Assembly: GCA_947568835.1 (NCBI GenBank)
Contig: OX387606.1
Location: 1,426,001 to 1,490,000 of the forward strand
Origin: Protonemura montana
Taxonomy: Eukaryota; Arthropoda; Insecta; Plecoptera; Nemouridae
Length of the DNA: 64,000 nucleotides
Direction of reading: 5' to 3'
Made by a program: the position numbers and the translations under genes. Below the pieces are notes generated by a model, which was given only the letters and a program-made list of their open reading frames with translations, ran no database searches and had not been told where the DNA came from. Below are positions 9,501 to 48,428 of this stretch, piece by piece (position 1 is the stretch's first letter; every line of letters starts with the position of its first letter).

Positions 9501-12500
9501 AAAAAATTTAATATAATATGAAATAACCCCTTAACGCGCTATGCAAACAATGACCTAGACGGGTAATATTCAGGGTTTTAACGTCCTCCGGCTACCTAGT
9601 CTTAACATATACGATTGCATAGTTTTTATCCTCAATAACAAAGCGTTGACCCCCAGAAGGTTGCGCCGCCAAGAAACGAGGCATAAAGCAAGCTTTGAGC
9701 TTCCTAAACACCATCTAAATGTTTTAATCAAAGGAACAATTTACTCTGGCTGTAAACTTTTTCACTTCCTGAGCTGCTTAAACTAAACTGATATAATTTC
9801 AAAACCAAACTTAACGCCTCTTTACTGGAAAATTTCTTTTACAACCTCGACGAATTTTATTTCAAATGTAAGCAATTATGACCTGAACATTTTGTACCTG
9901 TACTTTTACTGAAATAATGACTGTCTGTATATCTATGTACTATCAATAAACTTACTATTATGCTGTTATAATGTCTTACCGTCACTCCAAGGTGTTTACC
10001 TTGGACAACAGCAATCTCCTCAGCTCCTTGACTTACTTGACGACGACCATGTTCAGGGTCATGATGGTGCCAAAGAACAGGTACCAGCCCCAGAAGGTGT
10101 GGGCAATTGCGCGAAACAGGCTGGGCTCGCGGTCGGCAGCCTGGGCTCGCAACACCTCCCTGTTCCAGTTCCTGTGCAAGCATTTTATCTTCAGCTACAT
10201 GATCAATATTTAAAAAATATATCAAACTATTTTAATAATACATCCATATATTCCTTACCGTTAACCTGTATGTAAACATATGTACGACCGGTATTTCGAA
10301 TAGAAAACTTGTCAATATTCATAAGGAAGTGATAACAAAGACATGGCATGTTTATTGCATGAATCAGTTCTCAATAAATTGATTGTTTCAAACTGATTTC
10401 CTCATTCCTTGTAATCCAGCTTAGAGTACAAGGACGTGTGGTTTATTCTAGACTTTGTTTCTGTGACTAATTCCTTTATTTTCTAGCGCGCATGTTATCT
10501 TTAATGAAGTATTTTTGCCAAGGGCTTAGTGTATCGTGGAGGGATTACCAAGAATCAAGTCTTTGATTCGGAAGTTCCTCTTCCTACGTTCCTTCGCTCC
10601 ATCCATTTTCACTCCATTTCACTCGCTTAGATCAGTGAACCTACTTAATCCAGTTCATGCTCTTATTTCCGGACATAGCCGAATAATTAGTGCTCAATTA
10701 GTGATATTACCCCCCAAAATTTTGGAATTAGTGCTTCAATGATTTCCGAGATAAATGCATTTAAAGTTTGGCGGTAGGTCTATGTTGAAGTCCCTCACTA
10801 AAAAGACTCTAAGATGACCAGTTCTGTTCGGGAGAGAGGTTGGAGGGATGAAAATTAGTACAGCAACTTCACTCGCCTTGCTTATCAACCTCTCGACAGC
10901 ATGGATTTGTGGAGGAATCCTGCTGTTCGAGTTGTACCATCCTTCGGAAGGGACGTTAAGCCGGTTCTCTTCGACAGGAGTAGGCTACGTGCCAGCACCG
11001 GGTTTCCCCTCCTCCCTTCTAGGCTACGTTAGGTTCACCATCATCCTCATCATCATCCACTCATTCACCGACGCCATTAGACCAGTGCCGCATGGCCAGA
11101 TGTCAAAACAGTGCGTCGTAAAAAACCACAAATGAATCAATCTAAATAGACTCACTTCTCTAGCGTCCCACCGACCCGCTCGGAACGGTCTTCCTGCAGG
11201 ATGTTGAACAAATCGGTCTCTTCCAACTCCTTCTTGTATCCTTTGTGGAACAGGCCCATCAACCATCTGCAAAGAAACAGACCTACGTCACATACCTTGG
11301 CACCAAGCTGTCAAATCTACAGCGATGACATTGCGATAAATCCGAGATCGAGATATCATTTACCAAATAAGATGGCATATTTTGATAGCTGGCCATTAGT
11401 GACACGAGTCTAAATAATGTCCAGTCTGCTGAAATGCAGTACTACCTTTATACTTTTAGCAAGCATTTTAAATGTTCTTTATAAATAGGTTACAACTGTT
11501 CTATCCCACCCGTCGACAAATTGTAATTGATGTATGTATTGGTATGACCAAATGTTGAGCAACTTTAATGGTGAGTTTGACATTCAACCAGATTCAAACT
11601 AATTTGTGTGCTATCAAATAACGAAGAGCATGCAATATGGCAGGTGAATCAGTTTCTATTCCAAAATCGTTGTTATCGGCATCGATCGGAAATAACAGAA
11701 ACTAATTATACGCATGTTCGTCCTAAAGCTAATCACGTGAGTGGAAATCCATTCCCACCGCGTCACTGCCGTCGTGATCAACTGACTTTCTACCCCACCG
11801 TTGAAAGGTTTCGGGTATTCTGTTCCAAACATGTGCGTTGCTGACAAGCATCAGCTGCCGTGATACCTGATACCTGATATCAGGGACGTGCGTAGACAAT
11901 GCGAACACGCACGCACGGTCCAGGCGCGAGCTGCTGACCACGCAACGTTCTACGCATTCGACGGACTTTTGTGTACGAACACATCAGAAATATATTGAAA
12001 GTGATCGATCCCATCCAAGAACAGAACAAAATGGCTGTATTTGGTTCCCGCTTATGGCGAAAAACATGCGGGACCACATATGATGCGCATATTTTAATAA
12101 ACCTTTGTTTAGGTAAAGAAAAATACTCTGACATTGTTGTATTTCAATGTTTTATTGCTCAATTTTAGAGCTAATTCAGGTCACAAGAAGCTGTGCATTT
12201 TTAAAAATCTGACAGCTTTGTTTTGTTTCGAAGAGTGAAATCTCTGCTTACGTATTTAGGAGGCTGTGACCATTAATTTAGCTTTAGATGTTTCAGTTTG
12301 ACACTCATTTTTATAATTTTTTTTTTATTTGCAAGGCAATTCAGCCCCTACACCATATAAACCCGTCAGTGCCAGCCGTAATAAAAGCCCCCATTTGTAT
12401 CAATTTGGCACTGAATTTCAAGTCAGATAAGGAAACAAACTTCGATCTAATCTTGTAGTCATTCATTTCTCGGCTTGGATTAGGTGGACAAGTTGTAGCA

Positions 12501-15030: not shown

Positions 15031-15034
15031 ATTT

Positions 15035-15735
15035 ATTGTTTGTGGTGTTTAACGACGCACTGTTTTGATATCTGGTCATGCGGCACTGGTCTAATGGCGT
15101 CGGTGAATGAGTGGATGATGATGAACCTAACCAAGTCTAGAAGGGAGGAGGGGAAACCCGGTGCTGGCACGTAGCCTACTCCTGTCGAAGAGCACCAAGG
15201 GGACCACCGGCTTAACGTCCCTTCCGAAGGACGGTACAACTCGAACAGCAGGATTCCTCCACAAATCCATGCTGTCGAGAGGTTGATAAGCAAGGCGAGT
15301 GAAGATGCTGTACTAACTTTCATCCCTCCAACCTCTCTCCCGAACAGAGCTGGTCATGTGTATGATGGTCACCCATCCAATACCTGACCCAGCGCAGTGT
15401 TGCTTAACTTTCATCCCTCCAACCTCTCTCCCGAACAGAACTGGTCATGTGTATGATGGTCCCCCATCCAATACCTGACCCAGCGCAGTGTTGCTTAACT
15501 TTCATCCCTCCAACATCTCTCCCAAACAGAACTGGTCATGTGTATGATGGCCACCCATCCAATACCTGACCCAGCGCAGTGTTGCTTAACTTTCATACCT
15601 CCAACCTCTCTCCCGAACAGAACTGGTCATGTGTATGATGGCCACCCATCCAATACCTGACCCAGCGCAGTGTTGCTTAACTTTCATACCTCCAACCTCT
15701 CTCCCGAACAGAACTGGTCATGTGTATGATGGTAC
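15035..15735 (-). mobile_element. 5S-derived SINE, reverse, about 5 head units
   Basis: Reverse copy: the 3' tail is at the left (TGTGGTGTTTAACGACGCAC), then the body, then about five units with TAACTTTCATCCCTCCAACC junctions. The 5S-like 5' end proper is missing. Confidence 0.9.
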
Positions 15736-21004: not shown

Positions 21005-21455
21005 TATTATTATTATTATTTGTGGTGTTTAACGACGCAATGTTTTGACAACTGGCCATGCGGCACTGGTCTAATGGCGTCGGTGAATGAGTGGATGATG
21101 ATGTGGATGATGATGAACCTAACCTAGCCGAGAAGGGAGGAGGGGAAACCCGGTGCCGGCACGTACCCTACTCCTATCAAAGATCAAGGGGACCACCGGC
21201 TTCACGCCCCTTCCAAAGGACGGTACAACGCGAACAGCAGGATTCCTCCACAAATCCATGCTGTCGAGAGGTTGATAAGCGAGGCGAATAAAGTTGCTGA
21301 ACTAACTTTCATCCCTCCAACCTCTCTCCCGAACAGAACTGGTCATGTGTATGATGGTCACCCATCCAATACCTGACTCAGCGCAGTGTTGCTTAATTTC
21401 GGTGATCTAACGAGAACCGGTGTTTCCAACATGGCAAACCGTTCGGTCATCTATA
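21005..21455 (-). mobile_element. 5S-derived SINE, reverse, near full length
   Basis: One head unit plus body. The 5S-like end is at the right (GGTGATCTAACGAGAACCGG then TTTCCAACATGGCAAACCGT), and the (ATT)n tail is at the left. Confidence 0.92.
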
Positions 21456-21840: not shown

Positions 21841-22124
21841 GTGGGCTGATAGTGTATACTGGTTTTATGTTTTTCCAAATTAATCAGGCTATTTTCTGAA
21901 ATATATATTGCCAGCTTGAGGTCCGTTATCGATGCAGCTGACAAGATAACAAAGCCGAGATTAGAGCTGTATTCGTCTGCACACATTTTCAATTGCTATT
22001 CATTCATTGCACTTTGAGCTTTTGCAAGATTTACCTGGAGCAAGGAATCATCCGGTTCCAGAGCCAGGTGATTGAAGTCCAGAACCAGAACCAGGATTGA
22101 AGTACCTTAAAGAATATGCCACCG

Positions 22125-22845
22125 AACGGTTTGGCGCGTCGGAAACACCGGTTCTCGTGAGATCACTGAAGTTAAGCGACACTGCGCTGGGTCAGGTATT
22201 GGATGGGTGACCACCATACACATGACCAGTTCTGTTCGGGAGAGAGGTTGGAGGGATGAAAGTTAAGCAACACTGCGCTGAGTCAGGTATTGGATGGGTG
22301 ACCACCATACACATGACCAGTTCAGTTCGGGAGAGAGGTTGGAGGGATGAAAGTTAAGCAACACTGCGCTGGGTCAGGTATTGGATGGGTGACAATCATA
22401 CACATGACCAGTTCTGTTCGGGAGAGAGGTTAGAGGGATGAAAGTTAAGCAACACTGCGCTGAGTCAGGTATTGGATGGGTGACCACCATACACATGACC
22501 AGTTCTGTTCGGGAGAGAGGTTGGAGGGATGAAAGTTAGAACAGCAACTTCATTCGCTTTGCTTATCAACCTTTCGACAGCATGAATTTGTGGAGGAATC
22601 CTGTTGTTCGCGTTGTACCGTCCTTCGGAAGGGACGTTAAACCGGTGATGCTCTTGGAGCTCTTCGGCAAGAGTAGGCTACGTGCCGGCACCGGGTATTC
22701 CCTCCTTCCTTCTAGGCTAGGTTATGTTCATCGTTAGGTCTGTCATCATCCTCATCATCATCCGCTCATTCACCGACGCCATTAGACCAGTGCCGCATGA
22801 CCAGATGTCAAAACGGTGCGTCGTTAAACACCAGTAATAAATATA
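22125..22845 (+). mobile_element. 5S-derived SINE with 4 head units
   Basis: The head is well preserved (CACCGGTTCTCGTGAGATCA). Four 91-bp units lie 22165-22535, then the body, ending TTAAACACCAGTAATAAATA. Confidence 0.93.
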
Positions 22846-23152
22846 AATGAGAATATGCCACAGCGCACGCGTAGGACTAACACGCAGGTTATGTCAGAGA
22901 CACAGCGCTTTTACGGGACTCTTCGCAACCAATAACGACCTGCCAACTACTTTACCGACTTTGCCACCGGACGGAAACACCGTCTATTTTCACTTTCGTT
23001 CCGATCGCCGACCGCGGCGCTGTCGTCGACTCCAGCTGATCGCGAAGTCCGGCGACCCCGACCCCGGGGGTCAGGCCGAGTGATACCAGGGGGCAGTGGG
23101 CATGCGTAGTACGAGCACGCAGACAATATCTAGCCCAGTACTAAACAGTGAC

Positions 23153-23221: not shown

Positions 23222-26200
23222 GTGAGTAGGTCCCGGAGGAAGAGGGGTGCTGTCAATCCCTCGTGGACGTAGCTGTCGCGGGGAAATGCACTGCAAAGAA
23301 GATGATTGACTGATTTGGGGACATTAGCGATGCACGGCTTGCTCTGAGGCTCTGGTCTAATGACGTCTGTCAATGAGTGGGTGATGATGAGAAAACCTAA
23401 CATAGTCTAGAAGGGAGGAGGGATAATTCGGTGCTGGCAAGCATCAACTTGTTAAGGATGGTACAACTCGAACAGCAGGATTTCTTCACAAATTTACGTT
23501 ATCAAGAGGTTGATGAGCAAGGCGAGTGAAGTTGTTGTACTAACTTTCATCCCTCCAACCTCTCTCCTGAACAGAACTGGTCATGTGTATGATAGTCACC
23601 CATCCAATACCTGACTCAGCGCAGTGTTGCTTTACTTTCATCCCTCCAACCTCTCTCCCGAACAGAACTGGTCATGTGTATGATGGTCACACATCCAATA
23701 CCTGACTCAGCGCAGTGTTGCTTAACTTTCATCCCTCCAACCTCTCTCCCGAACTGAACTGGTCAAGTGTACGATGGTCACCCATTCAATACCTGACTCA
23801 GCGCAGTGTTGCTTAACTTTCATCCCTCCAACCTCTCTCCCAAACAGAACTAGTCATGTGTATGATGGTCACCAATCCAATACCTGACCCAGCGCAGTGT
23901 TGCTTAACTTTCATCCCTCCAACCTCTCTCCCGAACAGAACTAGTCATGTGTATGATGGTCACCCATCCAATACCTGACCCAGCGCAGTGTTGCTTAACT
24001 TTCATCCCTCCAACCTCTCTCCCGAACAGAACTGGTCACGTGTATGATGGTCACCCATCCAATACCTGACCCAGCGCAATGTTGCTTAACTTTCATCGCT
24101 CCAACCTCTCTCCCGAACAGAACTAGTCATGTGTATGATGGTCACCCATCCAATACCTGATCCAGCGCAGTGTTGCTTAACTTTCATCCCTCCAACCTCT
24201 CTCCCAAACAGAACTGGTCATGTGTATGATTGTCACCCATCCAATACCTGACCCAGCGCAGTGTTGCTTAACTTTCAACCTCCAACCTCTCTCCCGAACA
24301 GAACTGGTCATGTGTATGATGGTCACCCATCCAATACCTGACTCAGCGCAGTGTTGCTTAACTTTCATTCCTCCAACCTCTCTCCCGAACAGAACTGGTC
24401 ATGTGTATGATGGTCACCGATCCAAAACCTGACTCAGCGCAGTGTTGCTTAACTTTCATCCCTCCAACCTCTCTCCCAAACAGAGCTGGTCATGTGTATG
24501 ATGGTCACCCATCCAATACCTGACTCAGCGCAGTGTTGCTTAACTTTCATTCCTCCAACCTCTCTCCCGAACAGAACTGGTCATGTGTATGGTGGTCACC
24601 CATCCAATACCTGACTCAGCGCAGTGTTGCTTAACTTTCATCCCTCCAACCTCTCTCCCGAACTGAACTGGTCAAGTGTACGATGGTCACCCATTCAATA
24701 CCTGACTCAGCGCAGTGTTGCTTAACTTTCATCCCTCCAACCTCTCTCCCAAACAGAACTAGTCATGTGTATGATGGTCACCAATCCAATACCTGACCCA
24801 GCGCAGTGTTGCTTAACTTTCATCCCTCCAACCTCTCTCCCGAACAGAACTAGTCATGTGTATGATGGTCACCCATCCAATACCTGACCCAGCGCAGTGT
24901 TGCTTAACTTTCATCCCTCCAACCTCTCTCCCGAACAGAACTGGTCACGTGTATGATGGTCACCCATCCAATACCTGACCCAGCGCAATGTTGCTTAACT
25001 TTCATCGCTCCAACCTCTCTCCCGAACAGAACTAGTCATGTGTATGATGGTCACCCATCCAATACCTGATCCAGCGCAGTGTTGCTTAACTTTCATCCCT
25101 CCAACCTCTCTCCCAAACAGAACTGGTCATGTGTATGATTGTCACCCATCCAATACCTGACCCAGCGCAGTGTTGCTTAACTTTCAACCTCCAACCTCTC
25201 TCCCGAACAGAACTGGTCATGTGTATGATGGTCACCCATCCAATACCTGACTCAGCGCAGTGTTGCTTAACTTTCATCCCTCCAACCTCTCTCCCGAACA
25301 GAACTGGTCATGTGTATGATGGTCACCGATCCAAAACCTGACTCAGCGCAGTGTTGCTTAACTTTCATCCCTCCAACCTCTCTCCCAAACAGAGCTGGTC
25401 ATGTGTATGATGGTCACCCATCCAATACCTGACTCAGCGCAGTGTTGCTTAACTTTCATTCCTCCAACCTCTCTCCCGAACAGAACTGGTCATGTGTATG
25501 ATGGTCACCGATCCATTACCTGACTCAGCGCAGTGTTGCTTAACTTTCATCCCTCCAACCTCTCTCCCAAACAGAACTGGTCATGTGTATGATGGTCACC
25601 CATCCAATACCTGACCCAGCGCAGTGTTGCTTAACTTTCATCCCTCCAACCTCTCTCCCAAACAGAACTGGTCATGTGTATGATGGTCACCCATCCAATA
25701 CCTGACTCAGCGCAGTGTTGCTTAACTTTCATCCCTCCAACCTCTCTCCCAAACAGAACTGGTCATGTGTATGATGGTCACACATTCAGGTTGCAATGTT
25801 TTCAACAATTGGCAGAGTTGCACCATCCTTGTCATGCAAACAAATGACTCGCTGCAACTTGAAGATTGCATAGTTGTGAAACTGACCCAACTGAAGTAAA
25901 CAAATCGCACGCAACTTCTTTCTAGCGACGCTATTTTGTAAGAGGCCCTAAAAATGCCAGATTGCTCAGCTGTTTTTCTTCTCGTTCAAAGGCGCCGTGT
26001 TGTGCGAGAATGTGTACGTGTTTTATATGCGTCTGACGGGAAATCTTTTCTTTTCTAGGAGATTGATTTCAGAAGCAATCACACTTTAAACTTGGGTGTA
26101 GAAGCTTCATATGTACAAGGCAGAGGCTAGATAGACGCGTCACACATTACGGTCGGAGCAATCAATCAATCAATCAAACCAATCATTCAATCAATAAAAA

Positions 26201-29200
26201 CTATAAAAGCATCTGCAAAAACCTCGGGACTGTGGCGAGCACATGCCATGTTTTTGGACTGAAACTAATGAAAAATTCGCTTTAAGAGTTTGAAAGACAT
26301 CGTGCAGAACCCAACTCCCTAACCACCTCAACTAACCCCTCGATATCACGGTGTTGTGGGGCAATCCTTAAGTTCAAGTTCAAGTCAACCAATAACACGC
26401 GAGTCCATCTCGCCCTTGCAGATCTACACCCCGGGCGAGGAAATCGTGAAGCCATCGCAACGCCGCGAGCACCTACAATGGCCGACACCGACGCCAACTC
26501 CGACGCCAACGCCAACTCCGACGCCGACGCCGGGCCCTGGATCGCGACGCTTTGTCGGCAGGGTGACCGGGTTGTGTCCGACAGGGGACGGCGTCGCACG
26601 ATCGCAACTACTGCCCCTGGCGGGTGATTGCCGTCGCTTTGTGTCATGCTGGCGGGGGAGGGCGTTTGTCCAGGCTTGTGCGCCTGGCACGTTGTTCAAC
26701 GCCGCTACCCGCGAGTGCGACCACCCTGCCAAGGTCAAGTGCATGCAGGATCATGGCTCAGAGATCGGTGAGTCACCAGGTGAGTTCAAGGTCAATGCAA
26801 GTTCGAGGTCGCTTATGTGTCCTTGACCAGGTAACATGGTTGACCTTCATGATATTCTACGTAAGGGAGGTCCAAAAAGAGTTCAATTCACAACCATATG
26901 TTCATTAAAACTGTCAAAATTATACAAAACGAAACAAATGTACCTTAAAATTGAACCTTTGGTCTCTTCTAGCGAACAGTTCTGTGAGTTTTCATTTGTA
27001 AACCCCGCTTTATAAAGAATCTCCGTGCAAAAACGAAACTTCTTTACAACTTACTGAGTTTCCACAGCAGCAAAAGAGGAGCCCATTGCAAGACCGGCAC
27101 CTCCATCGGCACCCTCGACACGACTTCAGCCCCCTTCAGCCCGGAGCCCGGTCCCACCACCCAACGATTTCGTCCAGGCGCGCCATGGAAAGTCCAGCCC
27201 ACCGGCATCGAACCTGCGACCTGCGGAACGCCGGTACCTCTTCGAACCCCCCAAACTACACCTGCAGCCGCCACCGATGCCACCCCCGCCGCCCTACCTG
27301 TTGCCTCCACAAGTAGCAAGTTCCCTACCCCCGCCCCCGCCCCCGTGCTCCATGCCAGGCGGCACGGGACAGGAGCCACACCCCACAGACTGCGCGCGCT
27401 TCCTCAACTGCTGGCGTGGCACTGCGCATGTGCAGCGCTGCGCAGCGGGCACGCTCTTCAGCGCACGCATGGGCCGGTGCGAGCACGCACGTGACGTCGA
27501 CTGCTCTAAAGGTACGTTATTTTATTTTTATTTTATTTTGTGGTGTTTAACATAGCACTGTTTTGACATCTGGCCATGCGGCACTGGTCTAATGGCGTCG
27601 GTGAATGAGTGGATGATGATGAGGATGATGATGAACCTAGCCTAGAAGGGAGGAGGGGAAACCCGGTGCCGGCACGTAGCCTACTCATGTCGAAGAGCAC
27701 CAAGGGGACCACCGGCAATTAACGTCCCTTCCGAAGGACGGTACAACGTGAACAACAGGATTCCTCCACAAATCCATGCTGTCGAGAGGTTGATAAGCAA
27801 GGCGAGTGAAGTTGCTGTACTAACTTTCATCCCTCCAACCTCTCTCCCGAACAGAACTGGTCATGTGTATGATGGTCACCCATCCAATACCTGACCCAGG
27901 GCAGTATTACTTAACTTTCATCCCTCCAACCTCTCTCCCGAACAGAACTGGTCATGTGTATGATGGTCATCCATCCAGTACCTGACCGGTTAGCTCTAAC
28001 ATTTTCTCGATTATTCCAGGTTTAAGCTCCACTCGACAGCATTTAACACCAGCTTCAGCCAGCACTCGGCAACCCTGGTCGCCCACTCGCCCGGGCTGGC
28101 AGCCAATTTGGGACACTTCCACGGCTGCTCGGCAGTCTCCGCAGCCCACTCGGCCAACTCCGCTGCCTACTCGGCCATCTCCGCTGCCCACTCGGGCGAC
28201 TCCGCCTACCCCTTGGCAGACCACAGAACCAAACCAATCACCTCCTAATTTTCAGCCATTCCCACCTCTTCCATCTTTCCCATTATTGCCACGATTGCCA
28301 CCGGCTCCATCCTACCACTTCAACTCCACTCCACCGCCTTCTTTAAACTCCGGTTTCTCCCAGCACCGACCCTATAGTTCTTATCAAACAACGCCAGAGC
28401 CCTCTAAACCCAAACAAAACCCACCGCCACCTGGCGACAGATGGCCACCTTCAAACTCCGACACGCTCCTGTCCAATCAGCGGCCGCGCATCCCCGAAGA
28501 ATGGGGTGACGTTGCGTCCCGTCCGGGCACCGCAGTCCGCGCTGTCGTCGACTCCATTCGTGTAGACGACGAGGTCCTGCACTTGCCGCCTTGGAACAGG
28601 ACGACGCTGGAGGGTAGAGGCATGACGACGTCGTTAATGCAGCCAAGTACGACGTCGATGTCTGGAACGACGCCGTCAACCGCTAGCACGACTTCGTCGG
28701 TGCCCAGTCGTTCGATAGAGTCCCCGGCCTCCAGGTTTCCTCCCACTGCTTTGCCGTGGAATCAAAAGGTGGACGAGAAGGCCGTGATCCCGGACGACCA
28801 AGAGGAGACGATGCCTACGGCACAGAGCCACCAGAGAGGCGGGAAGATCGTAAACTCGGGAATCCAGGACAGGTAAGCGATGATCGGATTGGGAGGTGAA
28901 TCTCTCTGGCTAATTCAGTACAACCGTTGAGTGCAGGTTATAGGTAGAGAAACAACGTCAATGTTACAGTCTCTGCGTGAAAGATGGCCGCCAAATGACT
29001 ACCTTACCGACAAAAATGCAGAGTACTGGAATATCACGTTAAGTGGAGCCACTGTCGTATGAATTTTAATTTCGATTTTTCTCGTAGGTTAACTTGCTCT
29101 ACCTAGAAACTGCACACTCAACGGTTTAACATTAACGTTCTGTCTCTACCTAGAACCTGCACACTCAACGGTTTAACATTAACTTTCTGTCTCTACCTAG

Positions 29201-32200
29201 AACCTGCACAATCAACGGTTTCACCTTAACGTTCTGTCTCTACCTAGAACCTGCACACTCAACGACTTAACATTAACGTTCTGCCTATACCTAGAACCTG
29301 CACACTCAACGGTTTAACATCAACGTTCTGTCTCTACCTAGAACCTGCAAACTCAACGGTTTAACATTAACGTTCTGTCTCTACCTAGAACCTGCACAAT
29401 CAACGGTTTCACCTTAACTTTCTGTCTCTACCTAGAACCTGCACAATCAACGGTTTCACCTTAACGTTCTGTCTCTACCTAGAACCTGCACACTCAACGA
29501 CTTAACATTAACGTTCTGCCTATACCTAGAACCTGCACACTCAACGGTTTAACATCAACGTTCTGTCTCTACCTAGAACCTGCACACTCAACGGTTTAAC
29601 ATTAACTTCCTGTCTCTACCTAGAACCTGCACACTCAACGGTTTAACATCAACGTTCTGTCTCTACCTAGAACCTGCACACTCAACGGTTTAACATTAAC
29701 TTCCTGCCTCTACCTAGAACCTGCACACTCAACGGTTTAACATTAACGTTCTGTCTCTACCTAAAACCTGCAAACTCAACGGTTTAACATTAACGTTCTG
29801 TCTCTACCTAGAACCTGCACACTCAACGGTTTAACATTAACGTTCTGTCTCTACCAAGAACCTGCACACTCAACAGTTTAACATTAACGTTCTGCCTCTA
29901 CCTAGAACCTGCACACACAACAGTTTAACATTAACGTTCTGTCTCTACCTAGAACCTGCACACTCAACGGTTTAACATTAACGTTCTGTCTCTACCTAGA
30001 ACCTGCACACTCAACGGTTTCACATTAACGTTCTGTCTCTACCTAGTACCTGCACACTCAACGGTTTAACATTAACGTTCTGTCTCTACCTAGAACCTGC
30101 ACACTCAACGGTTTAACATTAACGTTCTGTCTCTACCTAGAACCTGCACACTCAACGGTTTAACATTAACGTTCTGTCTCTACCTAGAACCTGCACGAAC
30201 CTACAAGAACCTGTACAAGAACCTACAGTGTGTACAACTTTTCTCCTAGGAAAACTAAACTAATCAAATCTTAGGGAAGGTTCGACAAACTGCCGTTGAA
30301 ACGCAAATACATTGCAGTGGACTGGCACTTCGACTGCGTGGCGGTCGGGATCCCTCGGAAGGCTTCGTGTGGGCTCGGGACCCGAGCCTGGGCTGGGGCA
30401 TCACGTGCGACGAGCCTGGCCAATGGACGCTCGCCGAGGCGCATGTCACGTGCCGACAGCTCGGCTATCCTCGGTAAATATCGGCGGTGGTCGGTAAGAT
30501 TCGGCTTTCAGCTTGGCAAGGCAACTATGTTGCTGTTTGAACATATAATCTGTTCACTAACACCAAGTCACAGACGCGATTTGAGCGTTGAAAGTAGATT
30601 TACTTTCAAACAAACCGTCGCTTATGTCGGTTTTTAGACTCATGTCTACTTGATTTAGCCTTAGCACTAGTTTAAACAAAAACTATCAGGGTTAGCTAAT
30701 AATCAGTTATTGACCCTGATTATTTTATTTAGATGCATTTAGGAAGCTTGAACTAGGTAATTGTTAAAATTTTTTGTGGTTCTTTTGTATCGGAAAATTG
30801 TCAGGACTGCTCTTACCCTTGAAGAAGTAACTAGTATAAGTTACGAAACGTTGGGAAATTTCGTTCTTTAGTTAGCATTCAAAACCCAGTTTAAATAGTT
30901 TTTGTTAAAACCGTCGGATTTATTTTCCTGATATTGTAAGAGAGAACTGAAGTCGACGAAGCAATTTCAGAGGCGCTGCACTCTCGTGGCAAGGCTCGGT
31001 AGCTTGGCCACCGCCCACCGACGCACGCGCAGCCTTCACCTCAGTGCGCTGTCACGGCAACGAGCATGCGCTCTCCTCGTGCGCAGTCAACACTACAGGC
31101 GCGTGCGCAGCCACGAGCGACGCGTGCGCAGTCCGCTGCCAGCAGGACGCACGCAAACATTGCTCGCGCAGCGGGGAACGAGCACACGCCGGCAAATGTT
31201 TGCGTGTAGTTCGGCCGGACGCCGCTGCCGCTCTGGGGGCGTTCTCACGCGCCGAGGCACTCGAGGATTGTCGCTCCAGTGGCGGACAATTGTTGGACAT
31301 CACCACGTCTGCGCAGCACCACTTCCTGACCGAGTGGCTTGCGCAGACGGCACCGGAATTGGAGCTGGTGCTGACTTCCGGTGTAGGCGTGCCCGTGCTC
31401 GGACGACTCGTCTGGCTCTGGGAGAGTTCGGGAGAACCGTTTCCGTTCCACGCCTGGGGTGCAGGTTAGAATGGGAGAGAGAGGGAACTCCCGAAAGCTT
31501 CCCAGTGTCTCTTAGGGACTCCTAAAGCAAGGAGAATTGTAGGGCAAGGAGCGCCGAGTCACGGAAAACCAGAAACTGGAAAGTAAAATCACGAGTTGGA
31601 CAAAACGGAACTAGAGCAATGATTAGACACAAGTCTATCAGCCAATTATTTACATTGCAAGCAAAGAACAGTACACTTAAAGCTAAACCTGGCATATCCA
31701 CAGGAAACAATTGGTTTGACATAAGACCTGGCAAACACCGTCAAACAAAAGCTAGTGTTAAATCTAATAATAAGCTGAGATTGTAGTACGATATTTGTAA
31801 CCAAGCACTGGAGGGAAGACCCGGGTTACAGTGAAAGTGTCAACTCCTGCCGCAGGATGGCGCGAGGCGACGCTGGCTCACGGGTCGCGCACGCGCTGTC
31901 TAGTGCTGCGCCGTGAGGGCCACGAGTTCGTCTGGGCTGCGCAGGACTGCGCAGAAGCGAAGGGAGCGCCGTACGTGTGCCAGCGGCCGTATGATGAGAT
32001 AGGTAGGGTGACAGAGAAAGTATTGACGTTACATTGGTGTCAGGTGGGTGGGCCGATGTATATTGCGTGGTGCAAATAATGATTGGGCTACTTCAAGTGT
32101 TTGATTCGATGGCTTCAGTTAACATAGACATATCGAACGGCTTGGCTGGCTGCAAAAACACCGATTCTCGTGGGATTTTAAAACTAAAGCAACATTGCCC

Positions 32201-35200
32201 TGGACCAGGTACAAGTGACCGTAATGTTCATGGACTGTTCTGTTCGGGAGAGGGGGTTGGGAAATTGAAGAAAGTTCAGGACCTTCACTCGCTTTGCTTA
32301 TCAACCTCTCGACAGCAACTTCACTCGCCTTGCTTATCAACCTCTCGACAGCAACTTCACTCGCCTTGCTTATCAACCACTCGGCAGCAACTTCACTCGC
32401 CTTGCTTATCAACCACTCGGCAGCAACTTCACTCGCCTTGCTTATCAACCTCTCAACAGCAACTTCACTCGCCTTGCTTATCAACCTCTCGACAGCAACT
32501 TCACTCGCCTTGCTTATCAACCTCTAAACAGCAACTTCACTCGCCTTGCTTATCAACCTCTCGACAGCAACTTCACTCGCCTTGCTTATCAACCTCTCGA
32601 CAGCAACTTCACTCGCCTTGCTTATCAACCTCTCGACAGCAACTTCACTCGCCTTGCTTATCAACCTCTCAACAGCAACTTCACTCGCCTTGCTTATCAA
32701 CCTCTCGACAGCAACTTCACTCGCCTTGCTTATCAACCTCTCGACAGCAACTTCACTCGCCTTGCTTATCAACCTCTCGACAGCAACTTCACTCGCCTTG
32801 CTTATCAACCTCTCAACAGCAACTTCACTCGCCTTGCTTATCAACCTCTCGACAGCAACTTCACTCGCCTTGCTTATCAACCTCTCAACAGCAACTTCAC
32901 TCGCCTTGCTTATCAACCTCTCGACAGCAACTTCACTCGCCTTGCTTATCAACCACTCGGCAGCAACTTCACTCGCCTTGCTTATCAACCTCTCGACAGC
33001 AACTTCACTCGCCTTGCTTATCAACCTCTCGACAGCATGGATTTGTGGAGGAATCCTGTTGTTCGCGTTGTACCGTCCTTCGGAAGGGACGTGAAGCCGG
33101 TGGTCCCCTTGGTGCTCTTCGACAGGACTAGGCTACGTGCTGGCACCGGGTTTCCCCTCCTCCCTTCTAGGCTAGGTCAGGTTCATTCTCATGTGTATTG
33201 TCTCTCACTCGTTCACCGACACCATTTGACCCCAGGGTCCGTTGTCAAAACAGTGCGTCGTTAGACACCACGAATAAATCGATCTGTACTTGCACAGAGC
33301 CATGATATATCGTCGGATCAATTCAACGCTCATGCGTTACTATCTTTTCAGAAAAGATTATAATTATTTAGATTTAACGACGCACTGCTATGACATCAAG
33401 GCACTGGTCTAATGGCGTCAGTGAATGAGTGGATGATGATGACCCTAACCTAGTCTAGAAGGAAGGAGGGCAAACCCGGTGCCGGCACGTTGCCTACTCC
33501 TGTCGAAGAGCACCAAGGGGACCACCGGCTTAACGTCCCTTCCGAAGGACGGTACAACACGAACACCAGGATTCCTCCACAAATCCATGCTGTCGAGAGG
33601 TTGATAAACAAGGCGAGTGAAGTTGCTGTAATAACTTTCATCCCTCCAACCTCTCTCCCGAACAGAACTGGTCATGTGTATGATAGTCACCCATCCAATA
33701 CCTGACCCAGCGCAGTGTTGCTTAACTTTCATAGCTCCAACCTCTCTCCCGAACAGAACTGGTCATGTGTATGATAGTCACCCATCCAATACCTGACACA
33801 GCGCAGTGTTGCTTAACTTTCATACCTCCAACCTCTCTCCCGAACAGAACTGGTCATGTGTATGATAGTCACCCATCCAATACCTGACCCAGCGCAGTGT
33901 TGCTTAACTTTCATACCTCCAACCTCTCTCCCGAACAGAACTGGTCATGTGTATGATAGTCACCCATCCAATACCTGACCCAGCGCAGTGTTGCTTAACT
34001 TTCATACCTCCAACCTCTCTCCCGAACAGAACTGGTCATGTGTATGATAGTCACCCATCCAATACCTGACCCAGTGCAGTGTTGCTTAACTTTCATCCCT
34101 CCAACCTCTCTCCCGAACAGAACTGGTCATGTGTATGATGGTCACCCATCCAATACCTGACTCAGCGCAGTGTTGATTAACTTTCATCCCTCCAACCTCT
34201 CTCCCGAACATAACTGGTCATGTGTATGATGGTCGCCCATCCAATACCTGACCCAGCGCAGTGTTGCTTAACTTTCATCCATTTAACCTCTCTCCCAAAC
34301 ATAACTGGTCATGTGTATGATGGTCGCCCATCCAATACCTGACCCAGCGCAGTGTTGCTGTGATCTCACTTCTGTGATGAACTTCTGTGATCTCACGAGG
34401 ATCCGTGTTTCCAACACGCCAAACCATTCAGTCTTTCAGAAATTAAAAGTTATGTGCAGAGAGCAAAAAAAAACCTTTATCGACACAACAAGCATTTTTC
34501 GTTTCCATGGCAACAGCGTGCGACGAGTCCAGCGCGCACGCATGCCGGGAACCGGAAGCTGACTCGATGACGGACATGGAAACCGGTCCGATGGAACCGG
34601 AAGCGGCAGTCGAACAGACCAGCACCGGCGAGAACGTCGTCTTCGTCACGGACATCGAAACCAGGCCTGTTGCGAAATGTGAATTATTTTTCGGGTGTGA
34701 TTCGTCAGTCGAAAGGTTAAAATAAGCATTCAATACCGATCCAACACAACAAAATAATTCCAGAATGTTTCTCCAGGCCAACCAACATTCCTGATCTGGA
34801 ATGGATGAAGCAAAGGGAGCCGAAGACAGAACCAAAGGTTGCTGACGCCGAACAACAACCGCCACCGACAACACAACGAGCTACTGCACAAACTTTCAAA
34901 CAGCCGATAGCTGCGCAAAGACCTTCTGCGCAGGCTGCGCCTCGTCCAGAAGCTGCGCAGAGGGTTGCTGCGCCGGTAGCGTGTGGTCCGCGCGAGTTCC
35001 GCTGCTCGCCACGGGAGTGCGTGCCCGCTAAGTGGCGCTGCGATGGCCACGCGGACTGTGCAGGCGGCCGTGACGAACTCGACTGCGCAGCCGTTGCGCG
35101 GCAACGCTTCGAGATGCGCGCAGGCCGACGACTGGAGCGACATGATGCGCAGAAGTGGCTGGGATCGAGTGCCGAGAGCTGCGCGCGCCGCTGTCTGGAG

Positions 35201-38200
35201 TCGAAGGACATCAAGTGTTTGTCGTTCAGTCACCAGTGAGTCTGGAAGATGGAATTATTGGCTCTCTATTTCAGGGCAAAGAGCGTTCAAAATTTAGATG
35301 AAATCTTATTTAAATTGCAAACGCTTGCAATGCGCGGGGTATTTTATTATTATCAACACTATAACCTTCTCAAAAACTGATGCCTAAACGGGGATCCCCG
35401 TTTAGGCATCAGTTTTTGAGACGGTTATAGTGTTGATAATAATAAAATACCGTTCAAAATGGCCGACCACTAAACCTTCTTTCAACATTAATCCATAAGA
35501 GCTTGTAGAGTGAATTAAGCAAGAAAGCCGCTATATCGGCCATTTTAACTGCTCGTATTTTAGTAAAGATGCTTTAAAATTTAAAAGCTTGTACAGACAC
35601 AACGGCTTAGGTTCTATTTTGTCATTTTTTCAAAATTTCATATTGCTTCCTATTCTCATATCGACGTTTGGGCATCATTTTTTGAGACGGTTATAGTGTT
35701 GTAAATAATAAAATACCCCGCGCATTGCAAGCGTTTGCAATTTAAACAAGATTTCATCCTAATACAGCAACGAATCCAACGTCAAATTGGAGTTACTCGA
35801 GTTTGACAGGTTGTGACGTGATATAGCGTCACTAGAATCAGAGTGACTGTGAGTATTCACAGCCTCATGGTTCTACTCCTTGGAGATCCGTCATTCTCAT
35901 CAAATACACTAAAATCATCTCAAAAAGCAAGTGTCCAAGTAGCTCAATTGGTCAGAGCAACACCCGCCATAGGTGGAGATCTGGGTTCAAGTCCCCGTTG
36001 GAGCATCAATTTTTGAGACGGTTATAGTGTTCATAATAATAATATAACGCTAACATAATTGGCTTTGCATGTTTAGATCAAACCTATATTGACAGGAAAA
36101 GCAAATGCGTTGTTTTGAAGCTTAAGCTCAATAAAAGTCTGTAACTCTAGCTTCATCCTTTGACTTATAATCTGTCACAAGTGACATTCTCGACACAGCC
36201 CCGTCGATGAGACTTGTCTGCTAAGCGGTGCCAATGTGGGCACGACCGGAGCGCTCGCCGTGGCCGAACCCTGGAACTACTACGAGCTGACGTCATCGAG
36301 CATAGACTGCACGCACTTGTTTCGCTGTGACAACGAAAAGTGCGTCAACAAGACGGCGGTGAGTTCGCGGCTTTAGCACAACTGGTCACAACAGAAGGAG
36401 ATTTCTTTGCAACATACCGAACAACCCCCATATTATCTTCTAGCTCTGTGCAACACTGCGCTGAGTCAGGTATTGGTTGGGTGAACATCATACACATGAC
36501 TAGTTCTGTTCGGGAGAGAGGTTGGAGAGATGAAAGTTAAGCAACACTGTGCTGAGTCAGGTATTGGTTGGGTGAACATCATACACATGACTAGTTCTGT
36601 TCGGGAGAGAGGTTGGAGAGATGAAAGTTAAGCAACACTGCACTGGGTCAGGTATTGGTTGGGTGAACATCATACACATGACCAGTTCTGTTCGGGAGAG
36701 AGGTTGGAGAGATGAAAGTTAAGCAACACTGCGCTGGGTCAGGTATTGGATGGGTGACCATCATACACATGACCAGTTCTGTTTGGGAGAGAGGTTGGAG
36801 GGATGAAAGTTAAGCAACACTGCACTGGGTCAGGTATTGGTTGGGTGAACATCATACACATGACCAGTTCTGTTCGGGAGAGAGGTTGGAGGGATAAAAG
36901 TTAAGTAACACTGCGCTGCGTCAGGTATTGGATGGGTGACCATCATACACATGACCAGTTCTGTTCGGTAGAGAGGTTGGAGGGATGAAAGTCAAGCAAC
37001 ACTGCGCTGGGTCAGGTATTGGATGGGTGACCATCATACACATGACCAGTTCTGTTTGGGAGAGAGGTTGGAGGGATGAAAGTTAAGCAACACTGCGCTG
37101 AGTCAGGTATTGAATGGGTGACCATCATACACATGACCAGTTCTGTTCGGGAGAGAGGTTGGAGGGATGAAAGTTAGTACAGCAACTTCACTCGCCTTGC
37201 TTATCAACCTCTCGACAGCATGGATTTGTGGAGGAATCCTGTTGTTCGCGTTGTACCGTCCTTCGGAAGGGACGTTAAGCCGGTGGTCCCCTTGGTGCTC
37301 TTCAACAGGAGTAGGCTACGTGCCGGCACCGGGTTTTCCCTCCTCCCTTCTAGGCTGGTTTAGGCTCATCATTATCCTCATCGTCGTACACTCACTCACC
37401 GACCCCATTAGACCAGTGCCGCATGACCAGATGTCAAAACAGTGCGTCGTTAAACACCATAAATAATAATAAATAATTCGGACACCTCCCATCTGTTAGC
37501 AACAAGTGGAGTCATGCTTTGTGCCTTCTGACACAAACGCACCGCCTTGTTTAGGTGTGCGACGGCAAGAACGACTGTGGAGACCGAAGCGACGAGTCCG
37601 AGTGCAACGCCATCTACAAAGACTACGAGATCCGACTGGCCGGGAGTAATGTTTCTCACGAGGGACGCATCGAGCTCAAGGGTGCGTAGGTTTCTTGGAT
37701 CTTTCATATCTTTGATCACAGAACAAAGGAAAGAAGTCCCGAGTTGGACGCCATCTTGTGACGTCAGTTGGCTTCTATGGAGACCAACTAAGGAAGCCAA
37801 TGACTTTCTTTAAATTAGCAAGTGTCCCTCAAAAAGGGTTCAGTATTTTGGAATTGTTTTGACAGTTAGAATCGTTTGACATAAAGTCACCTGTTGCCAA
37901 CAAAAACTATTTGAACTGGGTTTTGAATGCTAAGTAAAGGACATCTAAATTTCCCGACGTTTCTAAGTGCTAAGTGTTAAGTCTATATCAAGTAGACATG
38001 AGTCTAAAAACCATCACCTGGAACCCTTCAGAGGCCGCAGTTCCTGAGCAAAAGGGATGAATGTGAAAAGGCTAAATGAAATCAAATAACTAACTCAAGC
38101 GTCGTTCCGCAGTCGGTGGCCGGTGGGGCGTCGTATGCGATGACCTCTTCGACCTGCGCGACGCCGAGGTAGCGTGTCGCGAGCTGGGCTTCCCGTTGGG

Positions 38201-41200
38201 AGCGCGTGAGCTGCTGCCAGGCGTCGCGGCGCCTGACGCCGCACGTGGCCTCGTCTTCCTAGTCGACGATCTTCAGTGTCGTGGCGATGAGACGACGCTC
38301 CGCCATTGCGACTTTGATGGCTGGGGTGTCCACGATTGTTCGCCGGACGAGGTCAGCGCCGACCTTCAAATCTGGATGCGGCGACTGTCAAAGTTGACCA
38401 GAGAATGTGTTACTCTATCTAGAGTTGCGTTTACCTATAAAGTTATAAACGCTAGGGTCTGGGATTTTATTACTTATGCTAGTGACATTGACGGATCTAA
38501 AAATAGATGGTTATCATTTTTTTTAGAAAAACTATTTCAACTGGGTTTTGAATGCTAAGTGAAGAACAACTAAATTTCCCGACGTTTCGTTACATGTACT
38601 AGTTACTTCTTCAAGGGTTAGAGCAGTCCTGACAATTTTCCGATAACAAAAGAACCACATAAAATTATAACAATTACCTAGTTCAAGCTTCCTAAATGCA
38701 TCTAAATAAAATAATCAGGGTCAATAACTTAAAAACTAATGTATTATGTATTTTCTGAAATAAGATCTCGAAAACATTGGCGTTTTTTTTAACTAACTAA
38801 TTATGTGTATGGAATTATAGTTTGCCTTCGAAAATATTCAGTCAATTCAAAATCTAAATAAGATACATCCATTGGCGGAGACAGGTTTAAGATATCTGCT
38901 CTTCTTCTCTTCCCAGGACCCACATACTTTTATTTTATATTGGCGAAAAATACTCTTCTTTTGGGAAAGCTAGAGGCTTTATAACATAATAACAGAATAT
39001 GGATAATAAAAAAGTAATTGATTTTTTTAATCTTACAGTTCCCTGAAAGAAATACTGACATAAGAGTTATCTGACTAGACTCACATGGCTGACAAGAGGG
39101 TTTCACCGGCAGGTGGCGGGCATAGCGTGTCGCGTGGCCGGCCTCGAATGCTCGGCAGACCAGTGGCGCTGCGAGACGAGCTTAGAGTGCATCTCTGTCA
39201 CCTTCCTCTGTGACGGACTCGACGACTGCGACGACGCCAGCGACGAGGCCGACCGCCACTGCAAGGTGAGTGCCGAACGGATTGACGCGTTGAGAACACC
39301 GAAGTTAAGAAGCACTGCTCTGAATCAGTATATCACCGAATTGAGTGTAGGTTACAGGTAGAGAAACAACGTCAATGTTACAGTATCTGCGTGAAAGATG
39401 ACCACCAAATGACTTCCTTACCGACAAAAATGCAGAGTACCGGAACATCACGTTAAGTGGAGCCACTGTCGTATGAAATTTAATTTCGATATTTCTCGTA
39501 GGTTACTCGCTTTTTAATATCGTTACGTGTTTATCAATCGTTGAGGTAAACATTGATGGAGATTTTTTGAGCATGAAAAGTCTCAAAAGCGAGTAACCTA
39601 CGAGAAATATCGAAATTAAAATTCATACGACAGTGGCTCCACTTAACGTGATGTTCCGGTACTCTGCATTTTTGTCGATAAGGTAGTCATTTGGCGGCCA
39701 TCTTTCACGCAGAGACTGTAACATTGACGTTCAAACTCTACCTATAACCTACACTCAACGGTATCATCAGTCTCATGACCCGTTCTGTTTGGGAGAGAGT
39801 TTGGAGGAATCGAGTTCCTTGCTTATCAGCCTCTCGACAGCATGCCCTAAGAGATGTTTGACAGATGGTTCCTTTTTCCTGCTCTGGAGTGAGCTACGTT
39901 CCAGATCTGGACTTACCCTCGTTCTTGCAAGTCGTCATCGTCACCCATGCTTTCAGTATCGCCATCAGACCGCAGTAACGGTTGTCATAACAAATGGTTA
40001 AAACGCCACAAAACAAACGAATAAAAGACACCAAATCTAGAACCTATCACAGGCCGAAAGATCACTCAACTAATAGGGAAATCTCATTAAGATTATTATT
40101 TAATTATTATCATTGTGTTCAAATACGCGTTTAAAATAAAATCTGATGTATTTTTTCTTTTTATAATCCGATCATAACTTTCCTATTTATATTTGTTTTA
40201 AGAATGGCTAAAATATGAATTCTCGTGGCGGGATGAAAACGGGCTGTGACGTCAGAAATAATGTTCTGATGTCATTTCGGGTCACTTTTGCGTTCGCTTC
40301 TGTTTCTTGACGTTTCTTGACGTCATACTGACGTCAGATATCACTTCATGTCATAAAAAATGGCGACCCTCGTTTTCGTACGAGATTGAAACGCAAACAT
40401 TTTAAACAGAAATATTTTCTTCAAAATTGGATTTAGAAGAAAATAAAAAAATACATGTTCATTATTTTCTCACAAAAAAATAAATAAAAATAGTTTGAAA
40501 TTTAAAGAGATTACCCTGTTAGACAAAGCAACCTGACATCGCTCCTCCTCCAGAAGATCAAGTTTCCTGTGACAGATGCAAGTCACAGCTTCGTTCTGTG
40601 CAGGCGCCGGTGGCGCTGCGACTAGCGGACGGTCCGAGCAACTCGTCGGGTCGCGTCGAAGTGCGTAGACACGGAGTCTGGGGGACCGTGTGCGACGACG
40701 ACTTTGATGCGCGCGCAGCGAAAGTCATCTGCAAGTAGGCATAATTCTTCTCCACAAATTCTCCTTTATGGCCGACATTTTACATTATGAGCTACTGGGT
40801 TTCAATGTTGCATGTCGGCCATTTTGAATGGCGGTTAAAATTACTAAAACCACCCGCAAACCTGCACTGGAAACCTTAAAGAGGCAAACCTCACAGAAGC
40901 TTATTTGAATACATTGCAAAATGTTCGAAACCCAGTTGTTATTTTGTGCGTACGCTCACGCACCTTTTCTTGCAATAGTGAACGTCGATCACTAATTCCG
41001 GGAAAAGTTTGGTCTACTCTACATTTAAATTCAAGTAACACACGTTATTTTTACGTGTTGGTGAACATTTTATTTGGAAATGGCATTCAGCAGAACGTAG
41101 GTAAATTCACAGAATCTTATCATTCTGAAAAATAAAAGCCAAATACACTAGCTCATAATTATGACTACGCAAAGCGATAGCAAGGCTAATCTTAGCTAAG

Positions 41201-47550: not shown

Positions 47551-47674
47551 AACACACGAGGTTCAACAAGGAAATGACCTCGAATTTACTTTATGATCAC
47601 TTTGCATTGTTAAAATATTAGATGTTTATGCAAAGCCAATGAAACATATTTTTTTAAATGTTAAACGAGTACCT

Positions 47675-48428
47675 CCAACCTCACTCCTGAAGAGATCTGG
47701 TCATGTGTATGATGGTCACCCATCCAATACTTGACCAAGCGCAGTGTTGCTTAACTTTCATTCCTCCAACCTCTCTCCCGAACAGAACTGGTCATGTGTA
47801 TGATGGTCACCCATCTAATACCTGACCCAGCGCAGTGTTGCCTAACTTCAATCCCTCCAACCTCACTCCTGAAGAGATCTGGTCATGTGTATGGTGGTCA
47901 CCCAAACAGTACCTGACTCAGCGCAGTGTTACTTAACTTTCATCCCTCCAACCTCTCTCCCGAACAGAACTGGTCATGTGTATGATGGTCACCCATCTAA
48001 TACCTGACCTAGCGCAGTGTTGCCTAACTTCAATCCCTCCAACCTCTCTCCCGAACAGAACTGGTCATGTGTATGATGGTCACCCATCCAATACTTGACC
48101 AAGCGCAGTGTTGCTTAACTTTCATTCCTCCAACCTCTCTCCCGAACAGAACTGGTCATGTGTATGATGGTCACCCATCTAATACCTGACCCAGCGCAGT
48201 GTTGCCTAACTTCAATCCCTCCAACCTCACTCCTGAAGAGATCTGGTCATGTGTATGGTGGTCACCCAAACAGTACCTGACTCAGCGCAGTGTTACTTAA
48301 CTTTCATCCCTCCAACCTCTCTCCCGAACAGAACTGGTCATGTGTATGATGGTCACCCATCTAATACCTGACCTAGCGCAGTGTTGCCTAACTTCAATCC
48401 CTCCAACCTCTCTCCCGAACAGAACTGG
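47675..48428 (-). repeat. 5S-SINE head array without body, reverse, about 8 units
   Basis: Units of about 90 bp with junction TAACTTTCATTCCTCCAACC. A four-unit block (including GAAGAGATCTGGTCATGTGT and ACCCAAACAGTACCTGACTC variants) recurs 361 bp later. No SINE body or tail: a free-standing array. Confidence 0.92.

Follow-up and report, generated by a model that had tools for sequence, protein, structure and literature searches.

A 5S rRNA-derived SINE of Protonemura montana whose promoter segment is usually tandemly repeated

Satellites built from pieces of short interspersed elements are known from squamates. The SINE-derived satellites described there (sSats; Vassetzky et al. 2023, PMC10702118) consist of tandem SINE portions, commonly with a longer terminal unit that reaches the SINE end, and the main snake unit contains promoter box B. 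Such loci show a subtelomeric preference, and long loci are more homogeneous (PMC10702118); SINEs have also been listed among satellite sources (PMC12692304). In insects, HaSE3 (PMC3272025) and PxSE4 and PxSE5 (PMC8010984) share a 5S-derived head, which contains boxes A, IE and C and is followed by body and tail. These three boxes are given as the promoter of 5S-SINEs, and the tails of PxSE4 and PxSE5 are simple repeats (PMC8010984). Target-site duplications (TSDs) are reported for HsSE3.1 and HsSE3.2 in the insect 5S-SINE papers (PMC3272025, PMC8010984), SINE3-1_TC is named among the insect 5S-derived SINEs (PMC3272025), and lepidopteran SINE3 families and further 5S-bearing LTR elements are described in PMC10886601. 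Retroelements of two other kinds combine a promoter with tandem repetition. In mouse L1 (L1Md; PMC6454616), tandem monomers that vary in number make up the internal promoter; they have been linked to promoter retention through truncation-prone retrotransposition, and unequal crossing-over has been proposed for very long arrays. The Cassandra TRIM element (PMC7215508) carries 5S sequence with a Pol III promoter and also forms tandem arrays.

The window analysed here, a 64-kb stretch of the Protonemura montana genome, had been credited in a preliminary description with at least sixteen insertions sharing a 5S-like head. We found 16 places that match the unit and/or the head of the element, at 2.1, 6.5, 10.8, 15.3, 21.3, 22.2, 23.5, 27.8, 32.1, 33.6, 36.4, 39.8, 41.7, 47.7, 52.8 and 60.1 kb, two of which (10.8 and 39.8 kb) hold just part of a unit, and the motifs quoted in that description are present in the window. 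The common head held for part of these places: a 5S head, whole, partial or divergent, was found at 9 of the 16 (2.1, 6.5, 21.3, 22.2, 32.1, 33.6, 41.7, 52.8 and 60.1 kb), but it is missing elsewhere, including the flagged array at 23.5 kb. Tandem Repeats Finder reported 91-bp arrays at 2.1, 15.3, 22.2, 23.5, 27.8, 33.6, 36.4, 41.7, 47.7, 52.8 and 60.1 kb. The unit counts agreed with the earlier ones within rounding, being 2 at 41.7 and 52.8 kb, 4 at 2.1 and 22.2 kb, 3.7 at 60.1 kb, 4.55 at 15.3 kb, about 8 at 33.6, 36.4 and 47.7 kb, and 24.6 at 23.5 kb. The individual features are as follows.

2105..2582, plus strand: 2.1-kb SINE copy with a partial 5S head, 4 units and the first 81 nt of the tail; the tail resumes at 3825-4033 after roughly 1.24 kb of intervening DNA
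6522..6962, plus strand: complete single-unit copy at 6.5 kb; TSD TTCGTTAGAG at 6510-6519 and 6966-6975
10814..11133, plus strand: 5'-truncated copy at 10.8 kb, about 0.4 unit and the tail; TSD-like match with p=0.0043
15033..15733, minus strand: headless copy at 15.3 kb with 4.55 units (of which 4 are whole; the copy begins 50 nt 5' of box A in a whole unit) and the tail; exact TSD ATTAGCGCTGT at 15734-15744 and 15022-15032
21010..21447, minus strand: complete single-unit copy at 21.3 kb; TSD with a ATCTGTTA core
22121..22846, plus strand: complete copy at 22.2 kb with a 5S head (62.5 bits), 4 units and the tail; TSD AGAATATGCCAC at 22111-22122 (last two bases within the head) and 22850-22861
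23345..23540, minus strand: decayed SINE tail of the 23.5-kb copy, 16.2% substitutions relative to the family tail
23541..25788, minus strand: flagged array at 23.5 kb, 24.6 units of 91 bp, without a 5S head
27528..27987, minus strand: headless copy at 27.8 kb, 1.8 units and the tail
32134..33277, plus strand: divergent 5S-headed SINE of the same kind at 32.1 kb, head 72% alike
33373..34432, minus strand: copy at 33.6 kb with the head and 8 units; 9-bp TSD TTTCTGAAA at 34434-34442 and 33346-33354 identified by eye, the automatic test giving p=0.79 with the 5' end placed inside the element
36450..37472, plus strand: headless copy at 36.4 kb, 7.9 units and the tail
39765..39844, plus strand: old fragment of unit and body at 39.8 kb
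41716..42246, plus strand: complete copy at 41.7 kb with the head, 2 units and the tail; TSD not significant (p=0.15)
47672..48428, minus strand: array at 47.7 kb without head or tail, 8.2 units
52807..53323, plus strand: complete copy at 52.8 kb with the head, 2 units and the tail; TSD AGAGAATATGCA at 52796-52807 and 53326-53337
60023..60408, plus strand: copy at 60.1 kb with a 5S head and 3.7 units, tail missing

Higher-order structure was seen in the 23.5-kb array, which contains a 909-bp (10-unit) duplication with a lag-909 self-identity of 98.1% (949 bp with 3 mismatches), and in the 47.7-kb array, which contains a 364-bp (4-unit) repeat with an identity of 99.0%. As to the other contents of the window, six of nine scanned frames, on the plus strand between 26 and 46 kb, matched Pfam families: two matched trypsin, one LDL-A with PAN, two SRCR (one of these falling below the curated cut-off) and one chitin-binding. 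An (ACCTA)15 repeat, i.e. TTAGG-type, is present at 62682, and together these features suggest an arthropod. A protein search with a window frame gave 101 candidates, none of which was significant.

The element begins with a 5S head of 48 nt, corresponding to about 5S positions 1-48 as read on the head strand. The head is followed by n units of 91 bp each, which start with AAGTTAAGC at box A, pass through GGTATTGGATGGGTGACC (box C) and end in a short non-5S linker, the box limits being those that we assume for the 5S-like region. In line with the earlier description, the tandem block starts at box A and holds box C. On the 3' side of the last unit follow AAGTTA and then a body and tail of about 284 nt, a part of the element that had gone unmentioned; it ends in the terminus CGTCGTTAAACACCAC, which in several copies is succeeded by (AAT)n and the TSD. 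The one-unit consensus measures 429 nt up to CACCAC, after which several copies continue with AAATAATAATAA..., and both the short length and the simple-repeat end are those of a SINE. TTTT is absent from the 429-nt consensus and was found in 4 of 265 units.

The presence of a 5S rRNA-derived SINE in the window was confirmed. With Infernal, six of the nine window heads scored above the Rfam gathering score for 5S_rRNA (RF00001), and the best of them (62.5 bits, E 9.8e-11) covered 5S model positions 1-120, which align to the head plus the first unit and so take in the box A/IE/C region that characterizes SINE3 elements. All of 17 further loci, which had been selected out of 46 for a good head, also passed the gathering score, with a best value of 67.5 bits. 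These matches identify the head as derived from a Pol III-transcribed RNA gene, as is required of a SINE, and uphold the 5S origin that the preliminary description had made dependent on significant 5S similarity of the head. Chance is excluded: Rfam E-values in the window go down to 9.8e-11, and reversed patterns, counted in the genome as controls, produced 0 matches. A query with an insect-type 5S pattern had 0 matches in the 258-Mb genome.

Multiplicity of the unit is family-wide and not confined to this locus, the confinement to which had been named as a result that would speak against the idea. Across the genome (258 Mb, 34 contigs), searches allowing up to 3 mismatches returned 5,205 head-unit, 21,828 unit-unit and 6,135 unit-tail junctions. 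These totals correspond to about 4.6 units per tailed element, a ratio that is rough in that the pattern lengths differ slightly, two of the three patterns carry G at site 22 and tailless arrays enter the numerator only. The mismatch-tolerant counts of repeats are possibly lower bounds and were used as totals; by simple arithmetic they amount to some 28,000 units, near 1% of the 258 Mb. No distribution was drawn from the matching positions, which appear incomplete, consecutive exact matches such as those at C1:31,841,565 and 31,841,656 being absent from them. Exact matches at C4:35,859-40,421 suggest an array longer than those counted below. In a sample of 224 kb not chosen by head, 19 of 23 counted copies were multi-unit, with a range from 1 to 24.6 units. 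The sample comprised the window, itself picked in the preliminary description, and the loci L001-L016, of which L007 and L008 adjoin the window; the count excluded locus-edge copies, copies of less than 0.9 unit and the divergent 32.1-kb copy.

The earlier statement that the promoter region "has become a satellite" needs to be narrowed. Some arrays do reach 15 to 25 or more units, but 21 of the 23 counted copies have fewer than 10, the longest having 24.6. Arrays lie scattered, most of them adjoining the head or tail of a SINE, and come closer to a VNTR carried by a SINE. SVA is a non-autonomous retroposon with an internal VNTR, and that VNTR is not a Pol III promoter segment. Copies such as those at 22.2, 33.6 and 15.3 kb and at L005, L008 and L014 repeat part of a SINE at least four times in tandem, the last repeat running on to the SINE end, which is the definition of a SINE-derived satellite.

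Tandem expansion is not promoter-specific. In the divergent SINE at 32.1 kb, a 36-bp segment of the body is repeated about 21 times (32283-33037), and 2,411 unit-unit junctions of this segment were counted in the genome. A tRNA-like SINE carries at 58789-59101 a 52-bp array of what we take to be its box A side, with 10,585 junctions in the genome.

Retroposition of the element was assessed by its TSDs. Of 50 3' ends found in the window and the loci, 38 belonged to copies with a traceable 5' end and sufficient flank, and for these we aligned each 5' flank with the 3' flank of the same copy and, for comparison, with the 3' flanks of the other copies (1,406 cross-pairs). At p<=0.01, 12 of the 38 scored copies carried a TSD, as is required of a SINE, and the other 26 had no significant one. 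Seven of the 12 hold one unit or less (L002, 6.5 kb, L024, L026, 10.8 kb, 21.3 kb and L025); the remaining five are multi-unit copies, at 15.3 kb (4.55 units, headless), 22.2 kb (4), 52.8 kb (2), L044 (3) and L010 (2). At 15.3 kb the exact duplication adjoins an array that breaks off within a unit, the form that a multi-unit transcript truncated at its 5' end would leave. The duplications bear out the claim that the element is a SINE spread by retroposition.

We propose, with a probability of roughly 0.7, that the multi-unit build is carried by source elements and that the arrays travel with the element, while truncation and in-place DNA change alter the unit number. Pol III-type transcripts with several units would be made from a source element and would be reverse transcribed by a LINE. 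Insertion would then proceed with TSDs, as observed for five multi-unit copies, and some insertions would lose their 5' end inside the array, as observed at 15.3 kb. The unit number could be changed thereafter both by the 5' truncation at insertion and by unequal exchange or slippage at the DNA level in place; such in-place change is backed by the higher-order repeats, by private variants and by an array that seemingly incorporates flanking DNA. As the probable seed of the first duplication we regard AAGTTA, a 6-bp direct repeat whose two copies border the unit exactly 91 apart. In the SINE consensus, the direct repeats AAGTTA at 91 and ACAGCA at 36 coincide with the two array periods, a match that speaks for seeding by microhomology; shuffled sequences had a 6-mer repeat at any one specified spacing in 5.4% of cases, and the element has 30 such repeats compared with 16 when shuffled. 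Alternatively, the AAGTTA at the 3' end of the array could be the remnant of a lost unit and not the seed.

If each insertion had landed with one unit and its array had grown by post-insertion minisatellite expansion only, arrays would be expected to be fixed at site 22, a G/A site outside CpG at which A was found in 68 of 225 units (site counts omit L020, with its mixed units, and unit 1 of head-selected loci). Both bases were found within 27 of 40 arrays, compared with 29.2 from random draws (Fst 0.04), none of the 40 was fixed for A, and the position of A within arrays showed no clear trend. Mixing at the level of random draws argues against one-founder growth per locus as the sole cause, and expansion from a single founder unit was rejected in that role. 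The simplest reading is that source elements already hold mixed multi-unit arrays, although arrays of separate loci could also have acquired mixed variants by gene conversion with one another. Also at odds with growth in place alone, 20 of 34 arrays with at least 3 units have a consensus identical to that of the family, and the difference is 1.1% in 9, 2.3% in 4 and 6.9% in 1, a comparison that retains L041 and the 23.5-kb copy and is partly circular in that these arrays make up the family consensus. Nor did unit number rise with tail divergence: it was uncorrelated with tail identity in 41 copies (rho -0.07, p=0.66) and in the 17 copies not chosen by head (rho -0.30, p=0.25), so that array growth with age is unsupported. 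Marks of local growth were also seen. Among ten sites examined, the rarer variants were locus-clustered at 47, 17 and 44 (Fst 0.45, 0.33 and 0.31; between -0.21 and 0.15 at the other six sites besides 22), which gives local expansion more weight than site 22 alone suggests. Exact 106-mers spanning adjacent units numbered 1,012 for GG, 235 for AA and 294 for GA genome-wide, so that, with AG taken equal to GA, neighbouring units differ at site 22 in 32% of cases versus 41% expected (r=0.22); this common variant is for the most part well mixed and shows a mild resemblance on the local scale. In 33 arrays with 222 units, the within-array distance was 0.047 versus 0.053 between arrays (6 of 1,000 label shuffles as low), and none of 1,000 shuffles of unit order reached the observed likeness of neighbouring units (L020 excluded). 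The same arrays held 154 variants, 80 of them in at least two loci and 55 seen once, and 19 variants were private to one array in at least two units, versus 1.24 expected. Growth in place is further favoured by the higher-order repeats at 23.5 and 47.7 kb, by the single-unit state of six TSD-bearing copies (6.5 kb, 21.3 kb, L002, L024, L025 and L026), and by locus L036, where a row of 12 units, each 91 bp long, links apparent 5' flank to a fragment of the head plus the first part of unit 1, beside a normal 10-unit array; this odd array formed, most simply, in DNA after insertion. At L020, 92-bp units combine the head with the first half of the unit. As the only process, in-place growth is in our judgement very improbable.

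A result that can be read in two ways came from comparing units with the tails of the same copies. In multi-unit copies, units diverged from consensus by 2.5% and their own tails by 5.3%, the units being closer in 26 of 33 copies (p 1.8e-5) and in 28 of 33 with site 22 removed; the comparison retains L041 and the 23.5-kb copy, whose tails are diverged by about 16%, and its second test omits unit 1 of head-selected loci. The single-unit control, a small sample of 9 copies, gave 3.8% for the unit and 4.5% for the tail. Units closer to consensus than their own tails are not predicted by pure inheritance, and exchange of units between loci is suggested. Taken to its full extent, such exchange would make the family a concerted satellite, in which ectopic gene conversion or recombination swaps units among loci and the SINE parts are no more than hosts. 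This would accommodate the closer units, the 23.5-kb copy (units 2.7% diverged, tail 16.2%, CpG sites masked) and the mixing of site-22 variants across loci. Yet the arrays mostly adjoin a head and/or a tail and several are flanked by TSDs, the neighbour correlation of 0.22 and the private variants indicate some local descent, and the contrast between single- and multi-unit copies is not significant (p=0.059; 0.084 without head-selected loci); we hold this explanation to be unlikely. About equally unlikely, in our view, is that extra units arise at each insertion during reverse transcription, by template jumping between units or second-strand slippage. Unit number does vary strongly among copies of similar tail identity, and both second-strand-priming expansion and unequal crossing-over have been proposed for the mouse L1 monomers (PMC6454616), but the 10-unit block repeats and the L036 array require later events.

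Arrays carried by source elements, the reading that we prefer, may in addition be a SINE adaptation in which redundant box A-IE-C units would preserve transcribability after 5' truncation and unit number would tune output, an idea that we consider doubtful. Within units (L020 and unit 1 of head-selected loci omitted), box A, at 2.0%, was somewhat less diverged than the linker (3.4%), and box C (3.1%) was close to the linker; promoter conservation is weak, and 130 of 265 units retain both chosen core motifs exactly. The 5' ends of headless copies lie approximately 50 (15.3 kb), 60 (23.5 kb), 70 (27.8 kb), 84 (36.4 kb) and 34 nt (47.7 kb) before the next unit, and that of the headless 10.8-kb copy lies 38-44 nt before the unit's end. 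With these differing phases, initiation at internal units is without support; phase-locked initiation would call for a common 5' phase, which the six headless copies do not have. Were the adaptation real, headless copies such as that at 15.3 kb would remain possible sources, and the array would be a Pol III counterpart of the mouse L1 monomers.

A SINE family in which the promoter segment usually forms an array, one that seemingly moves with the element, links SINE amplification to the birth of dispersed minisatellites, and a second SINE-like family of the same genome has promoter-side arrays too. Copies with anything from 1 to 25 type 1 Pol III promoter segments occur naturally by the thousand, and in them it could be measured how promoter number affects transcription and retroposition. 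Among the systems described, the squamate sSats have tRNA-related heads, occur in vertebrates, are presented as satellites and vary widely in locus number among species (PMC10702118), whereas the present SINE is 5S-derived, has a unit running from box A to box C, is multi-unit in 19 of 23 counted copies and bears TSDs on multi-unit copies. For HaSE3, PxSE4 and PxSE5, compared here by description, the main texts of PMC3272025 and PMC8010984 do not contain the word "tandem". The monomers of L1Md are about 200 bp long and lie in the 5' UTR (PMC6454616) of a LINE that is autonomous and has a Pol II promoter, and Cassandra is a plant LTR element in which the tandem unit is the LTR, with the internal domain as spacer, and not a promoter segment (PMC7215508). 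With the squamate satellites (PMC10702118) and the L1 promoter monomers (PMC6454616) published, the earlier remark that multiplication of the promoter block is "not a described feature" was too strong. Tandem promoter arrays in a 5S SINE were not found in the open-licence PMC literature (titles and abstract openings). Collectively, satellites from SINE pieces are already known, and what is new in the literature searched is the promoter array as the usual build of a 5S-derived family.

The units of the flagged SINE copy at 23.5 kb were 2.7% diverged, compared with 16.2% for its tail (23345-23540). In the plus-strand copy that starts at 2105, the tail was found to be split as follows:

2583-3824: an intervening segment of other DNA, about 1.24 kb long

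Tail positions 75-81 were present on either side of this segment, the pattern that an insertion duplicating 7 nt of its target would leave. Two independent SINE insertions had AGAATATGC in common at their target sites (22111-22122 and 52796-52807), which may reflect either chance or a target preference. Some reading frames of the window matched Pfam domains:

26323-45767, plus strand: domains of the chitin-binding, SRCR, LDL-A/PAN and trypsin types, all encoded on one strand

These frames perhaps belong to a single large mosaic serine protease gene, in which case the SINEs would be intronic.

The distribution of the 91-bp unit was assessed on contig C1 (33.1 Mb) by exact 106-mers spanning two adjacent units with G at site 22, and the counts at the contig ends were made by hand. 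Among the matches listed, 65 of 71 lay at most 3 Mb from a contig end, and the right end accounted for 60 of these 65. The arrays seem to concentrate towards contig ends. One sampled locus carried the following array:

L036:429-1527: twelve 91-bp units, in which apparent 5' flanking DNA is joined to a head fragment

This array and the neighbouring SINE array were equal in period but different in sequence, and our guess is that it was formed by an out-of-register exchange, shifted by one unit.

A 36-bp segment of the 5S SINE body was also tandemly repeated, with 2,411 junctions in a genome-wide pattern count:

32283-33037 in the window: about 21 copies
L039:2846-2923: 2.2 copies, adjoining a four-unit 91-bp array

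Dispersed minisatellites were abundant in the sampled loci, and three families were each common to loci far apart:

29097-30196 in the window, L012:1709-1940 and L030:2590-3055: 47-bp family
L001, L012, L020, L040 and L041: 41-bp family
60596-60896 in the window, L013 and L016: 114-bp family

Apart from these families, the window carried an interstitial (ACCTA)15, the TTAGG telomere-type repeat, at 62682-62755.

Tandem units were likewise found in a tRNA-like SINE:

58789-59101 in the window: array of a 52-bp unit derived from the 5' region, on the box A side
L003:3017-3430, L014 (four arrays), L032, L034 (two) and L043: 52-bp arrays in sampled loci

The genome-wide pattern count gave 10,585 unit-unit junctions for this unit; the tRNA-like SINE is a second SINE-like family having promoter-side arrays.
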